Origin: a virus
Virus record (IMG/VR): IMGVR_UViG_3300037882_001639
Coordinates: 1-25,651 of that record
DNA: 25,651 nt
Direction: 5' to 3' (one strand)
Part shown: positions 20,960-24,707 of the stretch, one piece after another
How the letters are laid out: the number at the start of each line of letters is the position of its first letter
How positions within the stretch are numbered: the stretch's first letter is position 1
Made by a program: the position numbers and the translations under genes
Notes under the pieces: generated by a model
What the model was told of the DNA's origin: nothing
The model's database searches: none
Seen by the model: the letters and a program-made list of their open reading frames with translations, nothing else

Positions 20960-21641
20960 TCAGGCGTGAAGCCTCCAGATTTCTCCCTTCAAATACGCCG
21001 CCACATTGCATTTCTTGCCAGTGCGATGGTCAATAACCCTGTCGTTCTGCTCCTGGACTGTGCGAATCTTGTCACTGCGCTCTCCACTGCCAATCTGCAG
21101 CTTTCGCTTGCTGTTTAGCTCCCCGTGAGTCTTACTCCCAAGCTGCGATAGAACACGCTCGCGAATGGTATCGGTAGCCCTGCGGATATTGGCGCTCTGC
21201 GACCTCTCGCTCTGTATAAACGCTGTGATCCCAGTCGGTCTGTGAATCGCTCTTATCGCGCTAGATGTCTTGTTCCGATGCTGCCCGCCCGGACCATGAC
21301 CTACCGTAGCCTCAAATTCAATCTCGCTCTCGTCAAACTCCTCTAGGCTACTTCCACTCTCATCGAACACTGCAACCGTAAACGTAGAACTGTGCCGCCT
21401 CCCATTCTGCTCAGTAGGTGGCACCCGCTGCCATCTGTGTCCACCCGCCTCTCCCTCAAACAACTCCCTCGCGCCCTCCCCTTCCACAGAAAGCACTACA
21501 CACCCCTCAAAATCCGATACTATCTCGCAACTAAAGACACCTCCGCTTGCACGCCTTCGCGTAAATGCTAGCCATGTCACGTATCAGTAACTTCGAATCG
21601 TCCCCGCCCTCCGCTGACCTTATCTCTATGCGCATTACCAT
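20960..21641 (-). CDS. Class I peptide-chain release factor (RF1-type), made by +1 frameshifting
   Basis: A 226-residue release factor in two frames. The first frame (21641-21534, ATG with GGAGG upstream) gives MVMRIEIRSAEGGDDSKLLI and RDMASIYAKACKRRCL, the start of the PCRF domain. A +1 shift at CTT (21536) then enters the frame ending at 20960: 'SCEIVSDFEGC', 'GEAGGHRWQRVPPTEQNGRR', 'GHGPGGQHRNKTSSAIRAIH', 'GSGERSDKIRT' and 'DRVIDHRTGKK'. PPT matches the PxT loop with which RF1 reads UAA/UAG; RF2 would have SPF. GGQ is the peptidyl-tRNA hydrolysis motif. Domain 1, present in normal RF1/RF2 (about 360 residues), is missing, as in the shorter PrfH-like factors. It would work on the ribosome, either to enforce termination or to rescue stalled ribosomes. 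A GGGTC promoter lies about 45 bases upstream. Confidence 0.8.
21531..21544 (-). promoter_or_regulatory. Programmed +1 frameshift site of prfB type with UAG
   Basis: GGAGG (21544-21540), TGT, CTT (21536-21534), TAG (21533-21531). In bacterial prfB an internal Shine-Dalgarno, a 3-base spacer and CUU-UGA cause the ribosome to slip +1 when RF2 is scarce. The geometry here is the same, with UAG instead of UGA, fitting an RF1-type product that senses its own level. Confidence 0.85.
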
Positions 21642-24080: not shown

Positions 24081-24707
24081 ATGCTCTCCGTTACACCAGC
24101 AGGCGACAATGCAAAACTAGGCGCAGGTGTCGCAACTACCTACCGACCCGTAGGCTTGACCTGCCCAAAAGATTGCCCACTACTTGGCGCTGGATGCTAT
24201 GCCCAGCGCGGTCATGTGGCTATCCATGCGCCCAGGTCGAAGAATCGCAACGACAGTCTGCTACCACTCGCAGGCAATACGCTAGTCCGCCACCTCGTTT
24301 CGGGTGACTGGCTAAAGCCAACAGCCGACGATAGGAGAATCGTAGACCGTGAGCTATTGCGGTCTGTGATCGAACTACACGAGAAAGCGCCCTGGCTAAC
24401 AGGCTGGGGCTACTCCCATGCAGCCGAGAAACTAGACGCCGCTGGTTTTGGACCTGATGCCATGCCTAGCAATTTGCGAATTTTGGCATCCTGCGACAGC
24501 GCCGAAGAGAAGGCAGAGCACAACGCCCGAGGCTGGGCTACTGCCCGAGTAATCGAAGTAATAGCCGAGAGGCTACCCGACGAGTTTGTTTGCCCTGTGG
24601 ATGCTCAGAAACGCGCAGGGATACCAGCAGAGAAACGGACGAATTGCGCGCGCTGCCGAAAGTGTTTCGACGGCGAGCCAGTCAACATAGCTTTTTTGAA
24701 GTTCTAA
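24081..24707 (+). CDS. Phage/plasmid gp88-like cysteine-rich protein (DUF7227-like)
   Basis: A 208-residue protein. It opens 'GDNAKLGAGVATTYRPVGLT' then 'CPKDCPLLGAGCYAQRGHVA', matching a known mobile-element family (N-x-K-T/L-G-...-TYRPxGxTCPxxCPxLGxGCYA). The middle includes 'WLTGWGYSHAAEKLDAAGFG' and 'LRILASCDSAEEKAEHNARG'. It ends 'RTNCARCRKCFDGEPVNIAF', a zinc or Fe-S cysteine set. Members are seen in phages and conjugative plasmids; activity unknown. ATG has GGCGGAG upstream within the radC 3' end, so the two are cotranscribed. Confidence 0.75.
   Translation: MLSVTPAGDNAKLGAGVATTYRPVGLTCPKDCPLLGAGCYAQRGHVAIHAPRSKNRNDSLLPLAGNTLVRHLVSGDWLKPTADDRRIVDRELLRSVIELHEKAPWLTGWGYSHAAEKLDAAGFGPDAMPSNLRILASCDSAEEKAEHNARGWATARVIEVIAERLPDEFVCPVDAQKRAGIPAEKRTNCARCRKCFDGEPVNIAFLKF

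Follow-up and report, generated by a model that had tools for sequence, protein, structure and literature searches.

Many large phages, and a few myxobacteria, carry a small protein for ending translation, a release factor, whose own gene is interrupted by a stop codon. As inferred from sequence, ribosomes must slip past this stop or read through it, so the factor should be made when termination is failing. Such control is known for bacterial RF2 and for giant viruses of amoebae, but in the open-access literature searched, where absence is no proof of novelty, we found no description of it in phages or in RF1-type genes. In total 200 non-redundant genes, 92 with a +1 shift and 108 with an in-frame stop, show the interruption.

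The starting point is a gene on the minus strand (21641-20960) of a 25,651-nucleotide viral stretch, IMG/VR record IMGVR_UViG_3300037882_001639, here called the window. The ATG at 21641 is preceded by the Shine-Dalgarno sequence GGGAGGG (21655-21649), and relatives have strong Shine-Dalgarno sequences at the same start. The zero frame (21641-21531) has 36 codons (MVMRIEIRSAEGGDDSKLLIRDMASIYAKACKRRCL) and ends with CGG AGG TGT CTT TAG: the internal SD-like GGAGG is at 21544-21540, the CTT at 21536-21534 and the TAG at 21533-21531. Homology resumes at once in the +1 frame (AGT TGC GAG, from 21532) and runs to the TGA at 20962-20960. In this second frame we find the Pfam domains RF-1 (2.3e-21) and PCRF (7.7e-11). 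The zero frame contains the start of domain 2, in agreement with matches to an N-part profile in relatives.

Read through the junction (TAGN as Ser), the product is a protein of 226 residues. Joining the two frames raises the NCBIfam RF1 score from 157.6 to 181.7 bits, with one continuous match to RF1 positions 108-331. The score is still below the curated prfA equivalog cut-offs (181.7 of 400; 170.5 of 423). RF1 is nevertheless the closest profile, and the best solved relatives are RF1. Domain 1 is absent, and the whole family is 218-230 residues long (5-95%). The codon-recognition tripeptide is PPT (21421-21413), of the PxT type, and the catalytic GGQ motif (21289-21281) is invariant in the alignment. 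A model of an uninterrupted family member (L119) has a pLDDT of 88.6, and its best matches are RF1 on the ribosome, with a TM score of 0.88.

Just upstream of the gene there is a sigma-70-like promoter motif, TTGCTG-17-TATACT (21713-21685, minus strand), with GGGTCCGT in the spacer, which fits the ATG at 21641 as the start. The general motif, TTGCTKT..GGGTCCGT....TATNMT, has four copies in the window while 0 are expected by chance. The others are at 20882-20854 and 19050-19022, both without mismatches, and at 16662-16634, all on the minus strand. The motif precedes the release factor gene and the cytosine methylase gene, and it looks like the phage's own set of sigma-70-like promoters. The methylase, a C5 cytosine DNA methylase of 573 aa (20835-19114, minus strand), lies directly downstream of the release factor gene, while a DUF7227/GP88-like protein is encoded at 24081-24707 on the plus strand.

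To find relatives we scanned viral and bacterial genome collections and obtained about 500 loci, which were classified using separate profiles for the N part and the C part. In 92 non-redundant genes, mostly from phages but also from some Myxococcota, the C part is in +1 relative to the N part. This is not chance: all 92 have CTT directly before the stop of the first frame, although CTT is only 14% of the Leu codons elsewhere in the same genes. The stop is TGA in 71, TAG in 19 and TAA in 2, and the next base is C in 64. An SD-like sequence is found in 80 of the 92, most often GGAGG exactly 3 nt before CTT (43 of 88 genes with the canonical site), while 12 have no recognisable one. At codon -4 CGG is found in 60 of 87 genes, against 16% of Arg codons elsewhere, and at codon -3 AGG is found in 46 of 87, against 10%.

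In a codon alignment synonymous conservation is at background (about 1.0) along the gene, with the exception of codons -4 to 0, where the ratios are 3.8, 4.0, 1.8, 5.1 and 1.9; the value of 5.1 is that of the CTT. This is the mark of a selected RNA element and not of sequencing error. Uninterrupted relatives are few, and they also lack the SD-like sequence. The observation made in the initial annotation is therefore confirmed, and neither of the results that would have spoken against it, a junction that is not conserved among uninterrupted homologues or a sequencing error, was obtained.

The shift class includes Myxococcota chromosomes: Sandaracinaceae, Kofleriaceae (with TAG), Labilithrix, Nannocystis and the complete chromosome of the isolate Minicystis rosea DSM 24000. 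These genomes also have full-length RF1 and RF2, so this is a third factor. It is sporadic and not a widespread Myxococcota orthologue, as among 113 genomes drawn from its phylum only Minicystis itself gave a third strong match. Four genes (L101, L124, L155 and L238), from two proteobacterial contigs (Novimethylophilus, Hydrogenophilales) and phages, use a different CTT-TGA +1 site about ten codons further on. Some records named as Staphylococcus, Listeria or Enterococcus phages (hits H7, H8, H11, H17 and similar; OR84xxxx/OR85xxxx) also match the query, but these are possibly host release factor genes in host DNA within phage records.

Another 108 non-redundant phage genes have an in-frame stop and no shift. 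The stop is TGA in 107 and TAG in one (L241, AAT TAG CTG). It is usually at the same codon as in the shift class, following a Gly codon, at the position of the conserved aromatic residue of RF1 (KGW-KTE), so that insertion of Trp at UGA would restore the protein. Only 2 of the 108 have an SD-like sequence there. Public phage genomes of over 600 kb, LR756501 (735 kb), LR756502, LR745206 and LR756504, have one or two in-frame TGA codons in this gene, 35 and/or 43 residues after the start of the conserved motif (30 and 43 in LR756501), while their RNR genes have none.

We considered whether these phages read TGA as Trp throughout (code 4), and this was rejected. ORF coverage alone does not discriminate between codes in GC-rich loci, and we therefore used family searches. 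Matches to terminase, ThyA and RNR in the same phages have no internal stops, apart from one TGA in a weak second ThyA-like match of one genome (G031). Further, in three sampled genomes TGA ends 26-33% of the ORFs, TGG is used normally, and no UCA suppressor tRNA was found. One phage (G037, carrying family member L070) has a tRNA with a CUA anticodon (L545:7193-7266), amber suppressor-like, although it uses TAG as a normal stop.

In the in-frame class synonymous conservation peaks in codons +1 to +5 after the UGA. Windows of 70 nt after the UGA fold better than shuffles (mean z -2.4, against 0.1 in a control). A consensus fold by RNAalifold over all 33 sequences found nothing, and the support comes from individual folds and from a stem found by scanning the same alignment. 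This unbiased scan of pairings found a stem between alignment columns 10-21 and 62-73, with more covariation than any of 500 shuffles; a register slid by +1 scores similarly, in line with sequences that use that register. In contrast, the shift class shows no such stem (z -0.05).

On a tree of the C part the two classes together separate from canonical RF1 and RF2 (support 93). The Myxococcota members are nested among phage ones, while uninterrupted members are few and mostly sister. L119 and L103 mark a loss of the stop and a change of mode inside the shift class. The stop changed at least 16 times within the shift class, and the mode of passage changed at least 10 times while a stop was kept. 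What is conserved is a stop codon as a gate, not which stop. Uninterrupted relatives read GGA TTT GAA or AAA TTT GAG at the site, so one inserted base would make CTT TGA.

The closest known systems are bacterial prfB and the eRF1 of giant viruses. With prfB the family shares an SD-like element 3 nt before CUU, the CUU slip codon, a stop, the +1 continuation and a class-I release factor as product. However, the factor here is RF1-type without domain 1. Further, the site lies in domain 2, at the codon after the RRxx stretch, whereas that of prfB is near codon 26 in domain 1 (PMC5009743), from which we infer a separate origin. In prfB the stop is nearly always TGA, 0 of 8,164 genomes surveyed have TAG, and prfA has no such site (PMC12421855). 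The UGA of prfB is read by the encoded factor, RF2, whereas the window has UAG and the family has mixed stops with RF1-type loops. In the eRF1 genes of Mimivirus (R726) and Megavirus (mg280), the nearest precedent, there is both UGA readthrough, with Trp proposed at the UGA, and a +1 shift at CUU-UAG-C or CUU-UAA-C, and stop identity varies between relatives (PMC3521657). That factor is of an unrelated eukaryotic/archaeal type, both events occur in one gene while here it is one or the other, and we found no mention of a bacterial-type internal SD.

PrfH also lacks domain 1 and is of similar length (window match 5-198 to model 3-198 of 200), but it has GP for GG, an SXY loop with a 3-residue gap and an rtcB partner (PMC1586002). 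The window protein has GG (AEGGDDS) and PPT without a gap (VPPTEQ), and its PrfH profile score of 98.2 bits is below the cut-off of 166.65. There is no link to rtcB, which was found in 4 of 35 virus records, at most one of them within a few kb of the gene, and there is no recurrent neighbour. PrfH is excluded by loop, GP motif, partner and score. Huge phages have been reported to encode RF1 and RF2, without any frameshift mentioned in the main text (PMC7162821).

The best explanation, in which we have high confidence, is that the gene encodes a compact RF1-type factor (domains 2-4 only) whose synthesis is gated by a stop codon inside its own reading frame. In this view the ribosome of the window's class pauses with CUU in the P site and the stop in the A site, while GGAGG upstream pairs with 16S rRNA. 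If no release factor arrives in time the peptidyl-tRNA(Leu) slips +1 from CUU to UUU and the full factor is made; otherwise a 36-residue peptide is released. In the sister class the same point would be passed by reading the in-frame UGA, most likely as Trp, helped by the 3' stem. The product should therefore rise when termination is slow or release factor is short. It should be kept in mind that all phage members are uncultured. The split, its register, the selected cis elements, the standard code elsewhere and the wide conservation are established by sequence. In contrast, that frameshifting and readthrough occur, how efficient they are, that they respond to release factor supply, and which codons the factor reads are inferred. 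As the stop is not fixed, unlike in prfB, a specific feedback loop is not demonstrated.

The initial annotation proposed that stop and specificity have been matched at this locus, so that an RF1-type factor limits its own synthesis at UAG. This interpretation is only partly supported. The prfB-type +1 site, the RF1-type factor with its PPT loop, the lack of domain 1, the UAG at the junction and the phage record hold, as does the absence of an earlier description in phages in the literature searched, but matching does not hold for the family. Most factors with PPT or PPN loops have UGA, which RF1-type loops are not expected to read: about 63 TGA against 16 TAG and 1 TAA in the shift class, and 106 of 107 TGA in the in-frame class. 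The few S-type loops, SPL or SPT with S as in RF2 in an otherwise RF1-like factor (among them L015, L398, L112, L030 and L082), tend to have UAG or UAA instead (4 of 6 against 15 of 82; Fisher p = 0.018, not corrected for relatedness and with too few independent pairs). That is the opposite of matching.

Three logics remain for what the gate senses, the product itself or the host RF1/RF2, none of them more than tentative. The first is cross-sensing, where the gate reports shortage of a host release factor, mainly RF2 at UGA, so that the phage factor is made when host termination is limiting. UGA is the gate stop in 178 of 200 genes, nearly all with RF1-type loops, and UAA, read by both host factors, is depleted at the junction against ordinary gene ends (2 observed, 25 expected; p = 6e-9). 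However, an RF1-type factor would not relieve a UGA shortage unless its specificity is wider, and members with TAG, including the window, need the mirror case. Somewhat less likely, the factor may read more stops than its loop suggests, so that any stop can serve, as for the eRF1 of Mimivirus (UAG) and Megavirus (UAA). All three stops exchange freely at one site, and there is a family-specific change from GGxE to GGxD at the helix tip, a region described as contacting the first stop base (PMC1586002), but UAA is strongly depleted and every other feature is RF1-like. Matched RF1 autoregulation is doubtful. It fits this locus alone, and loci with TAG at the junction also use TAG more at gene ends (0.35 against 0.22, p = 0.002), but the loops and the repeated changes of stop in the family speak against it.

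Two separate products are very unlikely. The +1 ORF of the window opens with a GTG at 21580, but 25 of 91 shift genes and 49 of 88 in-frame genes have no ATG, GTG or TTG in the second frame from 12 codons before to 17 after the stop, homology is seamless at the junction, and the selected sites are the slip site and the SD, not a start. Although the window alone is a metagenomic contig, sequencing error or a decaying pseudogene is refuted for the family by the same register and motif in 92 non-redundant genes, a complete isolate chromosome and intact frames on both sides.

A broader reading, which we consider likely, is that one phage-centred release factor family is defined by a regulatory stop codon inside domain 2. 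This stop is kept while both its identity (UGA, UAG, UAA) and the way of passing it (+1 shift with internal SD, or UGA readthrough with a 3' stem) change, making it a general termination-failure sensor. It would include the in-frame UGA readthrough circuit once imagined for RF2 and an RF1/UAG version, both described in a 2016 review as unknown apart from the giant virus (PMC5009743).

As far as the searched literature shows, this would be the first RF1-type gene and the first phage gene with a prfB-like gate, at a new place in the protein and therefore arisen separately. The sister class supplies over a hundred examples of the readthrough-controlled release factor that the 2016 review said had never been found. 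Such genes are easily mis-annotated as truncated or broken. The repeated swaps of stop and mechanism at one codon give natural experiments on why release factors need such control. They also make testable the long-standing question of why RF2 and not RF1 is regulated this way, and suggest that large phages monitor or take over translation termination.
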